Shown in pieces: positions 46,924-56,858 of a stretch of DNA of 64,000 nt. This DNA is from Fervidicoccaceae archaeon (GTDB taxonomy: Archaea > Thermoproteota > Thermoprotei_A > Sulfolobales > Fervidicoccaceae). Numbering within the stretch: position 1 is the stretch's first letter; each line of letters opens with the position of its first letter. The stretch covers positions 1-64,000 of the forward strand of contig JAVYOA010000001.1 of assembly GCA_038734945.1 (NCBI GenBank). Direction: 5' to 3'. The notes beneath the pieces were generated by a model, which made no database searches, had not been told where the DNA came from, and saw only the letters and a list, made by a program, of their open reading frames with translations. The position numbers were made by a program, and so were the translations under genes.

Positions 46924-48144
46924 ATGGGAAAGGTTGAGTGGAGCATAAGGAAGATTTCCAGAAATATTACGATGATAAGGATCATTGATTCTGAGACGAG
47001 GTTCTTCGAGGCCCTCTGGGAGATTCCGGAAATGATATCCTACAATTCATATTTTATATCAACTGAGGAGGGGGGCATCTTAATCGACACGGGCCCCAGG
47101 GATTCCTATGCATTTCTCGAAGCCCTGGACTCAGTAGCTTCTCCAAAGGATGTTTCTTTTCTCGTTGTCAACCACATGGAACCAGATCACTCCGGAGCTC
47201 TGGAATTGCTCATTGAGAGGAACAGAGACATCAAGATAGTATCCCACCCAATTTCCTTTCACCTGATGAAGAGCTTCTATGGGATTTCGCCTTCTTCCAG
47301 ATTGGAGATTAAGGATGGGGGGACGCTGAAGGTTGGAAAAGATGAGCTGAGGTTCTTTCATGTGCCCTGGCTCCATTGGCCTGAGACTATAGTGACCTAT
47401 CTTGAAAGCAGAAGGGCTCTTTTCACGGGCGATGTGTTTGGTGCCTATTCAATTGAATCCGAGCTTCTAGAAAGTGAAGAAATTGTAAGAAATGAGAAAT
47501 ACCTCTGGGAAATGAAGAAATACTTTGTTAATGTTATAGGTGCATATAGAAACAATGTTGTGAGCGCAGTTAGGAAGCTCAGAGAGCTCAATCTCAATGC
47601 GGAAATAGTTCTGCCTGCCCATGGAGCTGTTTTTCATGGAAATGGGGCTCTCGAATCCCTTCTCTCCATATATGAGGGCTGGTCCCTATGTGGAGAGAAG
47701 AGGGAGGCTATTATTGCTTTGAGCTCTATGTACGGCTTTTCCGAGGAGGTTGCCAAAGAAGTTTCGGAAGCTCTAGAGCAATTTGGTGTACCCAGCAAAA
47801 TTTTCAGATTCACATCCAAGATGAGGAATAACTTCTCCGATGCAATAGCAGCTATGCAAGATGCTTCTTTGATTGTAATCATATCCTCGACGTATGAGAA
47901 TTCTCCCCACCCCATCATTGAATATTTGGTTTCCCTTATGGGGAAAAAGCTATGCAGGGAAAAGAAAATTCTCTTGATCGGAACATATGGGTGGGGAGGG
48001 GGGACTGCTGCATCAATTCTCTTAGAGAACCTGGTTAAGAAGGGGTTCAAAGTCCCCGAGCCAATAATGGTGAATTCCAAGCTGACTTCTTGGGATAAGG
48101 AAAAAATTCATGAAGTGGTTGCTAAGCTATTTCTCAGCAGCTAG
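46924..48144 (+). CDS. fprA: Flavodiiron protein (FprA-type oxygen/NO reductase)
   Basis: A 406-residue A-type flavodiiron protein. The metallo-beta-lactamase domain carries the diiron ligands in VVNHMEPDHSGALE near residue 80, HVPWLHWPE near residue 145 and LFTGDVFGA near residue 164. The C-terminal flavodoxin domain (residues about 260-400) binds FMN at IISSTYENSPHP. It reduces O2 to water or NO to N2O. The last 18 bases overlap the convergent P-type ATPase gene. It sits alone on the plus strand with its own promoter and is probably an oxygen-detoxification enzyme. Confidence 0.92.
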   Translation: MGKVEWSIRKISRNITMIRIIDSETRFFEALWEIPEMISYNSYFISTEEGGILIDTGPRDSYAFLEALDSVASPKDVSFLVVNHMEPDHSGALELLIERNRDIKIVSHPISFHLMKSFYGISPSSRLEIKDGGTLKVGKDELRFFHVPWLHWPETIVTYLESRRALFTGDVFGAYSIESELLESEEIVRNEKYLWEMKKYFVNVIGAYRNNVVSAVRKLRELNLNAEIVLPAHGAVFHGNGALESLLSIYEGWSLCGEKREAIIALSSMYGFSEEVAKEVSEALEQFGVPSKIFRFTSKMRNNFSDAIAAMQDASLIVIISSTYENSPHPIIEYLVSLMGKKLCREKKILLIGTYGWGGGTAASILLENLVKKGFKVPEPIMVNSKLTSWDKEKIHEVVAKLFLSS

Positions 48145-50547
48145 GCCAACCTTTCTGAATATTAGGACCTTTAGAGGATCGATGCCTAATGTGAATGCTG
48201 CCGAATAGATAAGGGAAAAGAGGGAGGCTGTCAGTGGAATTGGCTTGACGATCAACCCGAGGGTTCCAAGGGCAAGAAAGGCAGCTATGACCCCTATGAT
48301 GGAAATTGATAGTTCCCTTCCCGGCCTTGTTCTCCAGAACCACCTTCTCTCCCTCACAATTAGGACTCTGAATTGGCTGGTGAAGACCATTACCAGCAAA
48401 ATGAATGTCTGCATCTCATGCTGACCGAAGGCAAATAGCCTAAGTCCCAGGTATATGGCTATGAGAGCTTCAAAGAGAAGAGCTATTCCAATTATTGAGG
48501 AAGATATCATTAGATTTCTTATGCTCCATTTGTTTGGACTGAGTGAGGGTTCTGCATTGTCTGTAGCCAATGACATTGTGGCAAAATCATTGGCAAAAAT
48601 CAGGAGGGCCATTCCCATTAGAGTAAGGACATCGTAGCGCAGCCACATCAGGCCAAGTACCAGCAGTAATGTAAACTGAATTACCTTTGCAACCTTGTTC
48701 AATATCCATGTGAGCGCTCTCTGATATACTTCCCTGCTCTGAATTATAGCATCCACTATTCCCTTGAGTCCAGGAGTCAGAAGAACTATGCCTGCTGAAG
48801 CCTTAGCAACATCTGTGGCATTGCTCACCGCTATTCCAAGCTCGGCCTGCCTGAGGGCAGGAGCATCGTTTACTCCATCTCCCGTCATTCCTACCATGTG
48901 CCCTCTATTCTGAAGCCCCTTCACAATTGAATATTTATCTTCTGGATAGACCTCTGCAATGAAGTCCACCATCTCTATTGTTTGAGCAAATTTCTCCTGA
49001 TCGTAGGACTTTATTTGCGATAGGGATGCTCCCTTGTCCCCTATTCCTACTTTCGCTGAGACCTCCTTCGCTATGAGGAAGCTGTCACCCGTCAGCATCT
49101 TGGGCTTTATGTATATTTCCTTGAGCTTTCTTATCAGTTCTGCTGAGTCTGGCCTTGGGGGGTCTGAAAGTCCTATTGCTCCTACTATCTTCATTTCTCC
49201 TCCTTCTTCTCCATATGAAACTAGAAGAGTCCTCAGACCCCTTGTAGCAAGATCCTCAATAATTTTTTCCAAATTTTGAGATGCCTCCTTGCATAGATTC
49301 TTTATTATCTGGGGTGCACCTTTTGAGACGCGGATTCTCTTCCCATCAAGTTCCACTATTCCCTCAGATCTCTTGAGGGAAGGATCGAAAGGAGTAAAAG
49401 ATAGCTGTTTTCCCCTTGGCACAATCCCTAGCTCCTTGGCCTTCCTTGCTATTGCAGCATCTATTGGATCTCCAGTTTCTGTACTGCTTGCATATAGGGC
49501 AAGCTCCAGGAGCTCCTTCTTATCAATGGAACCCAGGGGGATCAGCTCTGTTACTTCTATGGATCCCATTGTAATTGTACCAGTTTTATCTAGGCAAAGC
49601 ACATCCACCGAGGCCGCATCCTCAACTGCATCAAGCTTAGCAACGAGAACGCCCTTCTGTGCCAGCTCTCTTGCTCCTGCTGCCTGCATAATTGTCAGAA
49701 CTGCGGGGAGAGCTACTGGGACACAGCCCATTAGGATAGTTACATCGAATGCTATTATTGAGATAAGTTCGTTCTTTAGTCCTGTAAGATAAGTGAATAT
49801 GCTGGCTACTATCATAACTGCAATGCCCAAATACATTGAATATTTAGTTATTGAGAGCATTATCTCCTGCTGATGTGACTTTGGTCTCGCTATTCTGACG
49901 AGTTCAACGGTCTTTCCAAAATAGGTGTTCTTTCCAGTATTAACAACTAAGCACTTTGCCTTTCCTCTCCTCACAACAGAACCTGAAAATATGACGTCTC
50001 CGGAAGAGAGATCCACCGGAAGGCTTTCCCCTGTTAGAATGGATTGGTCCACTGAAATGCTTCCTTCAAGGATTTTGCAGTCCGCTGGAACTACGTCTCC
50101 AAGCTCTACTATTACTATGTCTCCTGGAACGAGAAATTTTGCCTCAATATTTTTCAGTCTTCCCGATCTTATAACTTTGGCCCTCAGTGCTAGCTTTGAC
50201 TTCAGTGTTTCAAGGACCTTCTTGCTCGAGTGCTGATGTGCAAAGCCAACAATGGAATTTATTACGAGTAGAGCTGCTATTATGACAGCTTCAATCGTAT
50301 GCCCTATTATAAGAGAAAGGGCTATGGCAATTTCAAGCAACCATGGCATTGGACCCCAGAATCTCCTGAGAAATTCGAGCATTGGATTTTCCTTCTTTTC
50401 CTCAACAGCATTGAGCCCATAGTGCTTCAATCTTTCCTCGGCCTCTGAATCGCTGAGACCTTCAGCATTTGTGCTCAAAAGCTTCATGGCATCTTCAGCA
50501 GAGATTTTCTCGAAGTCCTTTGTAGAAGTTTGCTTGGTGCTGCTCAT
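48127..50547 (-). CDS. P-type plasma-membrane H+-ATPase (type IIIA)
   Basis: An 806-residue P-type pump. It has a cytoplasmic N-terminus, LTGESLPVDL for the actuator domain near residue 175, phosphorylation motif DKTGTITMG with Asp at residue 320, and hinge VGMTGDGVNDAPALRQAELGI near residue 555. The TM4 start VPVALPAVLTI and TM6 region IFANDFATMSLATDN resemble plasma-membrane proton ATPases such as yeast Pma1. Ten helices are predicted. It exports protons, using ATP from the A-type ATPase, and helps pH homeostasis. The 3' end overlaps that of fprA by 18 bases. Confidence 0.9.
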   Translation of the reverse strand: MSSTKQTSTKDFEKISAEDAMKLLSTNAEGLSDSEAEERLKHYGLNAVEEKKENPMLEFLRRFWGPMPWLLEIAIALSLIIGHTIEAVIIAALLVINSIVGFAHQHSSKKVLETLKSKLALRAKVIRSGRLKNIEAKFLVPGDIVIVELGDVVPADCKILEGSISVDQSILTGESLPVDLSSGDVIFSGSVVRRGKAKCLVVNTGKNTYFGKTVELVRIARPKSHQQEIMLSITKYSMYLGIAVMIVASIFTYLTGLKNELISIIAFDVTILMGCVPVALPAVLTIMQAAGARELAQKGVLVAKLDAVEDAASVDVLCLDKTGTITMGSIEVTELIPLGSIDKKELLELALYASSTETGDPIDAAIARKAKELGIVPRGKQLSFTPFDPSLKRSEGIVELDGKRIRVSKGAPQIIKNLCKEASQNLEKIIEDLATRGLRTLLVSYGEEGGEMKIVGAIGLSDPPRPDSAELIRKLKEIYIKPKMLTGDSFLIAKEVSAKVGIGDKGASLSQIKSYDQEKFAQTIEMVDFIAEVYPEDKYSIVKGLQNRGHMVGMTGDGVNDAPALRQAELGIAVSNATDVAKASAGIVLLTPGLKGIVDAIIQSREVYQRALTWILNKVAKVIQFTLLLVLGLMWLRYDVLTLMGMALLIFANDFATMSLATDNAEPSLSPNKWSIRNLMISSSIIGIALLFEALIAIYLGLRLFAFGQHEMQTFILLVMVFTSQFRVLIVRERRWFWRTRPGRELSISIIGVIAAFLALGTLGLIVKPIPLTASLFSLIYSAAFTLGIDPLKVLIFRKVGLAAEK

Positions 50548-52917: not shown

Positions 52918-55518
52918 TTATCGTTTCATCTTGATTGCTATGAGCGCTCCAAATATAATTGTGATTAGGGCAGCTATGGGGAGAGGCACAGATATAGGGA
53001 TGCTGACGCTGCAGGAAGAAACCGAAGGATCATCCAATGTGAGGATCTGTTCGCGACTCATGAATGAAATGCTCTCATTTGTTGAGCTTCCACAGGTAAG
53101 TGTTGAAAGTGTTAGCACGTTGGGCAATCCAAGCAAGGATGTTTGTATAGCTGCTCTAGCCCTAAAGACCCCCCTCCCCTCGATGGGATTGTTTAGAGTA
53201 GCATTTGAAAGCACATTGCCCTGAGAGGTTGAGATATAGAGAAGCTGAAATGATAGAGAATATGCATAAATTCCACTATTTCCATGAACTGTGGATGCGA
53301 GAGATGAAAGGTTCAAGGAAGTTCCCTCAGGAAGCCAAGCTGTGTAGTTTCCGTTGAGAAGCTGTATATTAACGAGAAACTCCCTTTCATATTTGAGAAG
53401 CACATCGACTGGAGAGTTAACAGTGAAGTTTAAGTCCAGGGCTGTTCCATTTGGCAAGAAAGCTCCAACTAGAACGAGCCTCGTATTATTATTAAAAGCT
53501 ATTATCTTGCTTGAAAGCAAGTTGAGGTTTTCTCCTGGCTCTATCCATACATCGCTCTCATTGAACGGGCTAATGATTTTCACCAAGTATTCTGTAACAT
53601 ATATAGCCTCAAGCCTTCCAGGAGAGCTAAGGCTGAAGGTCTGCGGATTGATATAGGTTCCGTTGAACTTGAGGGAAGAAAGCACCAGAGAAGTTCTGTT
53701 TCCAAGATCTATCCTTTCTGGTATAAGCGAGAGGAAATCCCTTCCCTCTCTTATCCATATATTCTTTTCTCCATTATAGGTGAGAAGATCCACAAGATAT
53801 TCTTTTCCATAAACTAATGTCAGGTTAATTGGGCCGGAAATTGAATAGCTGCTGAAGTCTATTTTATTGCTATCTATGAAAGCTGAAATAAGAACCATTC
53901 TCTCGCTCTGCGATAGATATATTGTTGTGTTTATTAGATTCATCAGAGGGGTTCCATCGATTGCCCAAATCGAGCTGTTTCCTAATGGGGAACTTACTCT
54001 CACCAGGTATTCTCTAGTATAATTGATGAAGACGACAGTTCCCATGGGGACCGTGCTTCCGTTTACCTCCCTCCCGTCCACATAGGCTCTTGGTAGGATT
54101 AGCCTTGTTCCGTTGCCCAAATCGATCTCCTTAAGATATTGAGATATGTCGTTGCTTTCCTGCATGAAAACTCCATAGGGAGTCACTACTATTACGGAGC
54201 TCGACCAGAGCTGGTAAGCTTCTGCATTTCCAGGAAGCACAGCTGCTGAGTGGGGGAAAATAGCTATGGAGTTTGCTCTAGCTCTCTCATAGGTAGCAGT
54301 TCCAATGCTCCAGGCCGCTAGAGGAGGGATCCAACTTCCAGAAAGATTGTAGTACAGAGAGAGCTCAATGCTTCCTCCACTGAGAACAGCTATTGGCTCT
54401 TCCGCTGAATATCCAGCAAATACGAGTTCCAGATCCAGAGGAGTGCCGTACGAAGTCTTTATAGAAGGATCAATGTAGATTTCTGCTCTATTGGCAGGAG
54501 CATAGGGCTCTATGAGCACAGAGTCGTAGACTTTTCCATCCAGAATGAAGTTCACAATAATGCTAGAACCTTTAAGAGCAGTGGAAATTGTTAAATCATG
54601 GGTTCCAAATGCTATGGTGCCTTCCTTCCCATAGGCATAGTACTGCTCTCCTCCTCCCCAATACCAATATGTTCCTCCATTTCCAACAATTCTTCCCTGA
54701 GAAAATTGGGATGGGGCTGATGTGGCATTCCATATATTGTCGATATATCCTAGCATTGAACCATAGCTGCTTTTCCAATTGAGGCAGTTCTGAAGCCAAT
54801 ATATCTGCCTTTTTCCATCAGCCAGATCGACAACGAGGAATGCATTGAGCTGAATGGAGAAGCCGGGAAAAGCCGCTGTGCCATTTGCATAATAGGAAAT
54901 GGAAGATGGGGGATTGGTTATGTTCACAATGCCTCGCACCGAATTTGTTCTAATCGAATAGAAGAATGCTTCACCGGAGAGGGAGGTAACGCCATAATCA
55001 ACCACTCCAACAGGTGCTATGCTTCCAAGCTGAGAGATTGTTGCCTTTATATTGCCATTTATCCAGGCTGCTACAGCAGGAGATCCGCAGAGCTCAACAG
55101 AGATGTAGCCGTAGTAATCAGCTGGATAGCTTCCAGGATTGTATATGCCTATCTCCAGAATTGCTGGTGTAGAAATGTTTGCAGTGAAAGTTAGGCTCAG
55201 ATTGCTTGAAGCGCTACTTCTATATATCTCTTTTCCAGTTATGCTATCCTTGATAACTAGTTCCAATGGTTGCGTCGAAAATATAGATGAGAAGATGGAA
55301 ATGCCTATGCTTCCGGGAGCAGATATGTTTTCAGAGTAGTAAACTTCATAGTTGGGGGCTATGCTTCCGAGCCTCTCATGCGAATAGGTGAAGTTGAGAG
55401 TTTCCATGTAGCATTGAAATGCATGCAGAGTTTCCCCCTGTGCCAGTGCTATTTTCCCCGATAGCAGGAGAAGAGTTACCAGCCACAACAGCGCTCCAGC
55501 AGTTAGATACCTGTTCAT
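52918..55518 (-). CDS. Thermopsin-like secreted/surface protein with 70-residue repeats
   Basis: An 866-residue protein with an N-terminal signal segment (residues about 4-27). The first half carries thermopsin (A5 peptidase) landmarks: IYWLQNCLNWKSSYG near residue 240, GYIDNIWNATSAPSQFS near residue 262, and GNGGTYWYWGGG. Residues about 430-760 contain five copies of a 70-residue repeat. Four of them begin EYLV or EFLV at exactly 210-nt intervals (54012, 53802, 53592, 53382). A C-terminal helix (LPIAALITIIFGALIAI) and MKR tail anchor it. Many N-x-S/T sequons fit glycosylation, and a glycosyltransferase gene lies next door. ATG 55518 is preferred; GTG 55533 is possible. Confidence 0.8.
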   Translation of the reverse strand: MNRYLTAGALLWLVTLLLLSGKIALAQGETLHAFQCYMETLNFTYSHERLGSIAPNYEVYYSENISAPGSIGISIFSSIFSTQPLELVIKDSITGKEIYRSSASSNLSLTFTANISTPAILEIGIYNPGSYPADYYGYISVELCGSPAVAAWINGNIKATISQLGSIAPVGVVDYGVTSLSGEAFFYSIRTNSVRGIVNITNPPSSISYYANGTAAFPGFSIQLNAFLVVDLADGKRQIYWLQNCLNWKSSYGSMLGYIDNIWNATSAPSQFSQGRIVGNGGTYWYWGGGEQYYAYGKEGTIAFGTHDLTISTALKGSSIIVNFILDGKVYDSVLIEPYAPANRAEIYIDPSIKTSYGTPLDLELVFAGYSAEEPIAVLSGGSIELSLYYNLSGSWIPPLAAWSIGTATYERARANSIAIFPHSAAVLPGNAEAYQLWSSSVIVVTPYGVFMQESNDISQYLKEIDLGNGTRLILPRAYVDGREVNGSTVPMGTVVFINYTREYLVRVSSPLGNSSIWAIDGTPLMNLINTTIYLSQSERMVLISAFIDSNKIDFSSYSISGPINLTLVYGKEYLVDLLTYNGEKNIWIREGRDFLSLIPERIDLGNRTSLVLSSLKFNGTYINPQTFSLSSPGRLEAIYVTEYLVKIISPFNESDVWIEPGENLNLLSSKIIAFNNNTRLVLVGAFLPNGTALDLNFTVNSPVDVLLKYEREFLVNIQLLNGNYTAWLPEGTSLNLSSLASTVHGNSGIYAYSLSFQLLYISTSQGNVLSNATLNNPIEGRGVFRARAAIQTSLLGLPNVLTLSTLTCGSSTNESISFMSREQILTLDDPSVSSCSVSIPISVPLPIAALITIIFGALIAIKMKR
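53173..54222 (-). repeat. Five tandem ~70-residue coding repeats in the thermopsin-like gene
   Basis: Each unit follows the outline: hydrophobic strand (EYLV), four to six residues, W or F, I/L, D/E-G, LNL/LSL, ID/IAFGN/NN-TRLVL, a hydrophobic strand with NG, T-P/S, then the next EYLV. Four units have an exact 210-nt period; the first (SSVIVVTPYG at about 54210) is shorter and more diverged. The last (EFLVNIQLLNG) runs into a Cys-containing tail. The repeat looks like a beta-rich surface module. Confidence 0.75.
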
Positions 55519-55542
55519 GATTGGGATCCTCACTTTAGAAAA

Positions 55543-56784
55543 TCAGATCTTCTTCAACAGCTCTCCCAGCTTCCTCGCATATTCTTTTAGATTGAGCTCC
55601 TTTACCCTCTCCACAGATGCCCTTGAAAGCCTTCTCCACTCCCCCTCATTGTTCATGAGCCTGAGAACAGCATCTGCTGCCTCATCCCCATCCACATATC
55701 CAAGGGCATTTCTCCCATCCTCAGCCAGATCGCTCCATGCACCTCCAGATCTGTGAATCACTGCTGGAATTCCCCTGGCCATTGCCTCTGCAACAGCAAT
55801 TCCCCAGTGCTCGTTTACTGTTGCATGCATGAATACCCTGGATCTGTCCATGATTTTAAGCTTGAGCTCGCTTGGAGCATTGAGCAAGAGGCATATGCTC
55901 TCACTGCATTCTTCCTTTTCAGAGATCTTGATCCCCATGCTCCCAGCTAGCTTCATCAGCCTACTCACATATGCTCTGGAATGGGGGGTGGAGGAGGACC
56001 CAATTATGTATAGCCTTATCTCAGGATCCTCCCTGAGGAGCCTCGGCAATACCTCCTCTATGACCCAGTGATACCTCTTCTCCTCGCTGTACCTCCCAAT
56101 CATGACCACGCTCTTCTCCCTCTCCTCAAAGTCCCTTGGCCTCTCAACTATCTCCATCGATGGCGGGATTGGGGGGTTCAATACAGTGGGCTTCTCCCCA
56201 TACACCTCCCTCACAATGTTTCCAGTCCAAGAAGAGTTTGTTAGAACGAGATTTGAAGCATCAAATGGATTTATACCTGTGAACTGCGGAAGAATCTTCT
56301 TGTATACCCACCAGTACAGATTCATCGGAAACCTACCGTACCTTTCGAGAATGTACGGATCGTTTCCATAGAAATACCCCTTCTTTCTGTAATCCTCGTT
56401 AACGGCTGCCTCAAGAGGAAAATGAATGTACTCTATGGTCTCTATTCCCCTCTCTCTGAGCTCTTTCAATGCTCTTCGTGACGTAGCCTCATCGGAAAAT
56501 ACTATCTCTGCATTGAATTTCTCAGCTGCTCTTTTCCCCACATTGCCTACGAAGAGCCTTAAGTAAATTCCAAATGCCTTCAAGTCTATTGGATAGCTAT
56601 ATGTTTCAAAGTCTTCCAGGGAAATGCCGTACCATTGGGGATACTTGCTAACATCTATTTTCATGGGTGAGGCGAGGACGGGATCAAATCCCATAGCTTT
56701 CAGAGCGATTGCCGTGGATGAGCATACAAGCTCTCCTCCTCCTGGCTCGTTCCAGTAGTGATGAAGAACTACAGCTTTAGCCAT
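55543..56784 (-). CDS. GT4-type glycosyltransferase (ALG11-like)
   Basis: A 413-residue GT-B glycosyltransferase. The N-terminal VVLHHYWNEPGGGELV is the nucleotide-sugar domain start. The family signature EHWGIAVAEAMARGIPAVIH near residue 329 (with the EX7E pattern) and MIGRYSEEKRYHWVIE near residue 228 are clear. The segment SSSWTGN and WSDLAEDGRNALG resemble the ALG11-type mannosyltransferase. It probably adds a sugar to a lipid carrier or surface glycan. Its position just upstream of the highly N-x-S/T-rich thermopsin-like gene on the same strand suggests involvement in surface glycosylation. Confidence 0.82.
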   Translation of the reverse strand: MAKAVVLHHYWNEPGGGELVCSSTAIALKAMGFDPVLASPMKIDVSKYPQWYGISLEDFETYSYPIDLKAFGIYLRLFVGNVGKRAAEKFNAEIVFSDEATSRRALKELRERGIETIEYIHFPLEAAVNEDYRKKGYFYGNDPYILERYGRFPMNLYWWVYKKILPQFTGINPFDASNLVLTNSSWTGNIVREVYGEKPTVLNPPIPPSMEIVERPRDFEEREKSVVMIGRYSEEKRYHWVIEEVLPRLLREDPEIRLYIIGSSSTPHSRAYVSRLMKLAGSMGIKISEKEECSESICLLLNAPSELKLKIMDRSRVFMHATVNEHWGIAVAEAMARGIPAVIHRSGGAWSDLAEDGRNALGYVDGDEAADAVLRLMNNEGEWRRLSRASVERVKELNLKEYARKLGELLKKI

Positions 56785-56858
56785 CTCAATCAACTACAGA
56801 GAATTATTGAATAACTGCTAAAAACGTTTTTTTACTAAGCAGAATTTCCCTTTTTCTT

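Follow-up and report, generated by a model that had tools for sequence, protein, structure and literature searches.

The single thermopsin gene of the 1.34-Mb source genome, a minus-strand ORF at positions 52918-55533 of the window (the whole stretch of 64,000 nucleotides that was analysed), probably codes for a member of peptidase family A5 that is secreted, tethered to the membrane and heavily N-glycosylated, and in which an InlB-B-like spacer bears a head that is most likely an extracellular protease. The evidence for this assignment comes from the domain architecture of the protein, from the conservation of its head and from comparison with homologues.

Architecture of the protein and genetic locus

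All features given below lie on the minus strand. The predicted protein comprises 871 amino acids if translation starts at a GTG codon; an ATG at position 55518 may also serve as start. At its N terminus, hydropathy indicates a signal segment (55438-55518; hydrophobic at approximately residues 10-30 and followed by ALAQ, with a helix at residues 10-24 in the structure model) which would direct export. This segment is followed by a beta-rich region (approximately residues 35-165; 55039-55431) that was modelled with low confidence and whose residues Cys41 and Cys149 are kept in a congener and in Thermofilum-type homologues. The thermopsin domain (residues 170-418; 54280-55026) and five tandem units of about 70 residues come next. 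Cys814 and Cys841 of the adjoining membrane-proximal module (52990-53157) are both conserved in an alignment of homologues. The protein ends with a hydrophobic helix (approximately residues 849-867 by Kyte-Doolittle hydropathy, 852-870 in the model) and a KMKR tail (52921-52989). This helix would retain the protein in the membrane, a topology predicted from hydropathy alone. The order of repeat stalk and C-terminal anchor proposed in the preliminary description is supported by these features, the anchor by hydropathy. The five beta units may act as a spacer across the cell-surface layer, by which the N-terminal beta region and the head are brought outward. In addition, the protein contains 24 N-glycosylation sequons, as compared with a mean of 10.2 and a maximum of 17 after shuffling; this excess fits a glycosylated surface protein and suggests that N-glycosylation takes place.

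The gene is flanked by genes for an MBL-fold protein and cysteinyl-tRNA synthetase (CysRS), and a GT4-type glycosyltransferase gene (55543-56793) is located approximately 10 nt upstream of it. The latter is missing at the equivalent locus of congeners G001 and G002. Congener G002 carries a thermopsin orthologue in the matching position, with 49% identity over 857 aligned columns, and this orthologue stands there without the glycosyltransferase gene. In congener G001, the MBL and CysRS genes are separated by an empty interval of about 140 bp, and no thermopsin was found elsewhere in this genome (87% complete). As G001 lacks the gene at an intact locus, the thermopsin gene is accessory within the genus. 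Further, no thermopsin was found in several members of the archaeal family. An initial contig scan with the whole protein as query had returned no relatives. The same window also contains a gene for a plasma-membrane proton-efflux P-type ATPase (48127-50547; TIGR01647, 715 bits), which lies near CysRS in the congeners too.

The 70-residue stalk repeats

Four E[YF]LV starts had been reported at positions 54012, 53802, 53592 and 53382 (residues 508, 578, 648 and 718), and their spacing of exactly 210 nt was confirmed. The stretch 53173-54222 corresponds to residues 438-787, i.e. exactly five times 70. When residues 441-790 were scored against themselves with BLOSUM62, similarity was highest at a lag of 70 (0.354), followed by a lag of 140 (0.114); the peak lies far above the best value reached at any lag by shuffled sequences (-0.176; n=300). 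Periodicity is not confined to the EYLV strand. The three central units U1 (508-577; 53803-54012), U2 (578-647; 53593-53802) and U3 (648-717; 53383-53592) align over 70 residues without gaps, share 19 to 21 of the 70 positions in each pair, and match the units of the congener column for column over all 70 columns. The two outer units are diverged: U0 (438-507; 54013-54222) and the somewhat longer last copy U4 (approximately 718-792; 53158-53382). The fifth copy postulated ahead of the four starts is real, since the partner of U0 is unit 1 both in the congener and in Thermofilum-type homologues (scores of 223, 149 and 158 versus at most 54 with any other unit). In a unit-by-unit comparison, both U0 and U4 had their best match in their positional counterpart in the congener.

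At the DNA level, neither a 210-nt array (Tandem Repeats Finder) nor a 210-nt family (separate repeat search) was detected, so the repeat in the protein is old and does not stem from a tandem duplication that is recent or unstable. A recent expansion was also rejected because each unit has its own counterpart in the other species. Judged by these sequence comparisons, the units are ancient, and the repetition exists at the protein level only. The stalk part of the full-length structure model, built from the window protein's own sequence alone, reached a pLDDT of about 35, and mixed or unit-only alignments for stalk modelling were poor or shallow.

Repeat number, for which variation between strains had been considered, is constant at five in the two congeners that possess the gene, the units of the G002 orthologue corresponding one to one with those of the window protein. 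It is lower by one in the Thermofilum-type lineage (L121, L124, L125 and L130), where the four units align with a single clean gap of unit length. These homologues show approximately 30% identity over 660-730 residues and share the N-terminal region, head, repeats, cysteines and anchor with the window protein. A tree built from 75 heads placed the window protein in this set (local support 0.995) and apart from the G004 thermopsin, although G004 is a member of its own family. The group includes the A5 thermopsin of Thermofilum uzonense (L124; probably MA03_03850), which resembles the window protein in full architecture and repeat type at about 30% identity but has four units instead of five. 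The authors of the T. uzonense study list an A5 thermopsin as one of four proteases that may account for peptide hydrolysis (PMC4673724).

No Pfam model matched the 70-residue repeat. In particular, direct Pfam search found PF18998 (Flg_new_2, divergent InlB B-repeat) neither in the whole protein nor in single units, nor anywhere in the genome. Profile comparison with hhalign, however, aligned the window units with divergent InlB B-repeat-type units over 69 of 70 columns (probability 95.7%, E 9e-9). Further, neighbouring or overlapping units in two other loci (L073 and L137) were called Flg_new_2, and the repeat profile and PF18998 models overlap in L137. On the grounds of this profile match and these calls, the unit is regarded as distantly related to the divergent InlB B-repeat. 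Both are about 70 residues long and align end to end as profiles, but the window repeat lies below Pfam detection and has neither the GWY nor the gW motif present in archaeal PF18998 units.

Family membership of the head and proposed role

The head, described earlier as thermopsin-like, belongs to family A5: PF05317 is the sole Pfam domain of the protein (E 1.5e-39; 136.5 bits versus a curated cut-off of 25). To transfer residue numbers, locus L020 was taken as thermopsin, as its motifs are at the published positions. Thermopsin residues Q109, N111, N148 and D228 are the same in all of 52 heads, and Q128 and E305 in nearly all. The window protein keeps all six; taken in the order Q109, N111, Q128, N148, D228 and E305, their equivalents are the putative active-site residues Gln228, Asn230, Gln248, Asn269, Asp337 and Glu416 (54286-54852; 52 heads and a 16-row alignment). 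The congener also retains the invariant polar residues of the family.

The preliminary description regarded a stalked, membrane-tethered thermopsin as unusual, which is wrong. Among 145 uninterrupted PF05317 ORFs listed from 214 genomes of the order, the listing stopping short of the weakest matches, 108 have at least 500 residues and only 16 have fewer than 400, and nearly all long ORFs read to their end possess a C-terminal hydrophobic segment by hydropathy. Published examples exist as well. SsMTP (SSO2045) and SsMTP-1 (SSO1175) of Sulfolobus solfataricus consist of a catalytic domain followed by tandem motifs, are N-glycosylated and located at the cell surface, and are active acid proteases (PMC3958906). 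With their thermopsin head, tandem repeats and transmembrane segments they resemble the window protein, which is of the SsMTP type in combining head, tandem repeats and C-terminal hydrophobic segment in one chain. However, they belong to other A5 subgroups, and their additional domains are PKD, RPT and Y_Y_Y instead of the 70-residue units. The window gene thus represents an ordinary tethered archaeal surface protease whose plan is already well documented.

The similarity in plan to these active enzymes was counted in favour of a protease, and the head most likely cuts peptide bonds outside the cell as a tethered acid protease. Against this counts that Asp129 and Asp302 of thermopsin, proposed as catalytic in a 2013 review by Rawlings (PMC3842238), are replaced in the window protein by Asn249 and Ala413, respectively, though both positions vary across the family. 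According to the same review, the fold and catalytic residues of family A5 were unknown at that time (PMC3842238).

The strongest rival explanation is a structural role: the protein might be a secondary stalk that ties the S-layer canopy to the membrane, with proteolysis being incidental or lost. Two proteins which share signal sequence, thermopsin family, stalk and C-terminal helix with the window protein have a demonstrated function in S-layer anchoring. The S-layer is gone when Saci1846, a thermopsin-family protein with a signal sequence and a C-terminal helix, is lost together with SlaB (PMC12207459), and M164_1049 is a secondary S-layer anchor that assists SlaB (PMC6712394). The window protein is likened to both by general architecture alone, and its stalk differs from that of Saci1846, which consists of three Ig-like domains and not of InlB-B-like units. 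Moreover, the absence of the gene from G001 at an intact locus, and of any thermopsin from several family members, argues against an essential anchoring function. We consider S-layer anchoring unlikely as the main role of the protein.

Still less probable is that the protein is a degenerate thermopsin maintained as an adhesin or binding protein, whose non-cutting head is accompanied by repeats that bind surfaces or glycans; the divergence of the head (about 140 bits versus about 300 for canonical thermopsins), the two missing aspartates and the occurrence of related repeats in numerous surface proteins that have no recognised protease domain would agree with it, but every invariant polar residue is kept in both the window protein and the congener, and the divergent head type is also maintained in the Thermofilum-type homologues.

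Fold of the head and spread of the stalk repeat

An AlphaFold2 model of the thermopsin head alone (window 54220-55044) was obtained with a pLDDT of 84.6 and a pTM of 0.88. It suggests a glutamic-peptidase-like fold, which is of greater interest than the repeat finding itself. Among the best solved structures matched by Foldseek were (i) scytalido-glutamic peptidase of family G1 (E 1.3e-5, probability 1.00, TM-score 0.50 by target) and (ii) neprosin (E 6.5e-5, probability 1.00), a beta-sandwich glutamate peptidase with a structure similar to that of eqolisins (PMC9343461). TM-scores of the glutamic-peptidase matches were only 0.38-0.50, with an rmsd above 8 (8.7). A further match was YncM of B. 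subtilis (4hfs; E 5.6e-5), an uncharacterised protein which may share a fold group with the glutamic peptidases. A pepsin-like fold was rejected, as no pepsin-type enzyme was among the structure matches listed.

Sequence profiles do not share this similarity. Comparison of A5 with 12 archaeal PF01828 proteins (Peptidase_A4, eqolisin) by hhalign gave a probability of 0.1% and no sequence link. Searches of solved structures by sequence, with the head profiles as well as with the repeat profiles, returned nothing credible, and a viral structure library yielded nothing informative for the model. In the full-text papers searched, none naming both thermopsin and neprosin was found; for thermopsin and glutamic peptidases, only the 2013 review was found, which argued against a glutamic mechanism (PMC3842238). 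At the level of fold, the modelled head would thus resemble glutamic peptidases and not pepsin, which we offer as a hypothesis. Tentatively, and with some doubt, we propose that A5 thermopsins adopt the beta-sandwich fold of glutamic peptidases with Gln128 and either Glu305 or Asp228 as the catalytic pair, and that one family of InlB-B-like repeats provides an interchangeable stalk to surface enzymes of these archaea that are not related to each other. If true, such a pair would fit the pepstatin-insensitive A5 members.

A search with the 70-residue unit, as had been suggested, was carried out with a six-unit profile; of 300 genomes from the phylum, 46 contained the repeat. The matches include further repeat-bearing thermopsins (L122, L128, L139 and L140), which have anchors except for L128, where no C-terminal hydrophobic peak was found. 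Many matches are unnamed surface proteins in which no protease domain was recognised. A stalk repeat that has no name in Pfam is common to thermopsins and a thermopsin-kinase fusion as well as to matrixin-like metalloproteases and a signal-peptidase-like protein.

Two ORFs (L127:2224-4842 and L137:1665-4274) combine a matrixin-like metalloprotease domain (Peptidase_M10) with repeats of the window type, and the metalloprotease of L127 showed a hydrophobic segment at its C terminus. In L071 (310-2079), a Peptidase_S24 domain with weak similarity to signal peptidase S26 is followed by related repeats; L075 (307-2079) resembles it by sequence. Finally, in a 1261-residue ORF (L115:1810-5592; G204:C1:1313809-1317591) a thermopsin head is combined with YLV-type repeats, a hydrophobic segment and, at the C terminus, a protein kinase domain (PF00069), a layout like that of receptor kinases. 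A further open frame of G204 (C1, approximately 1307295-1311179; 1301 codons) shows matches to its head as well as to its kinase part.
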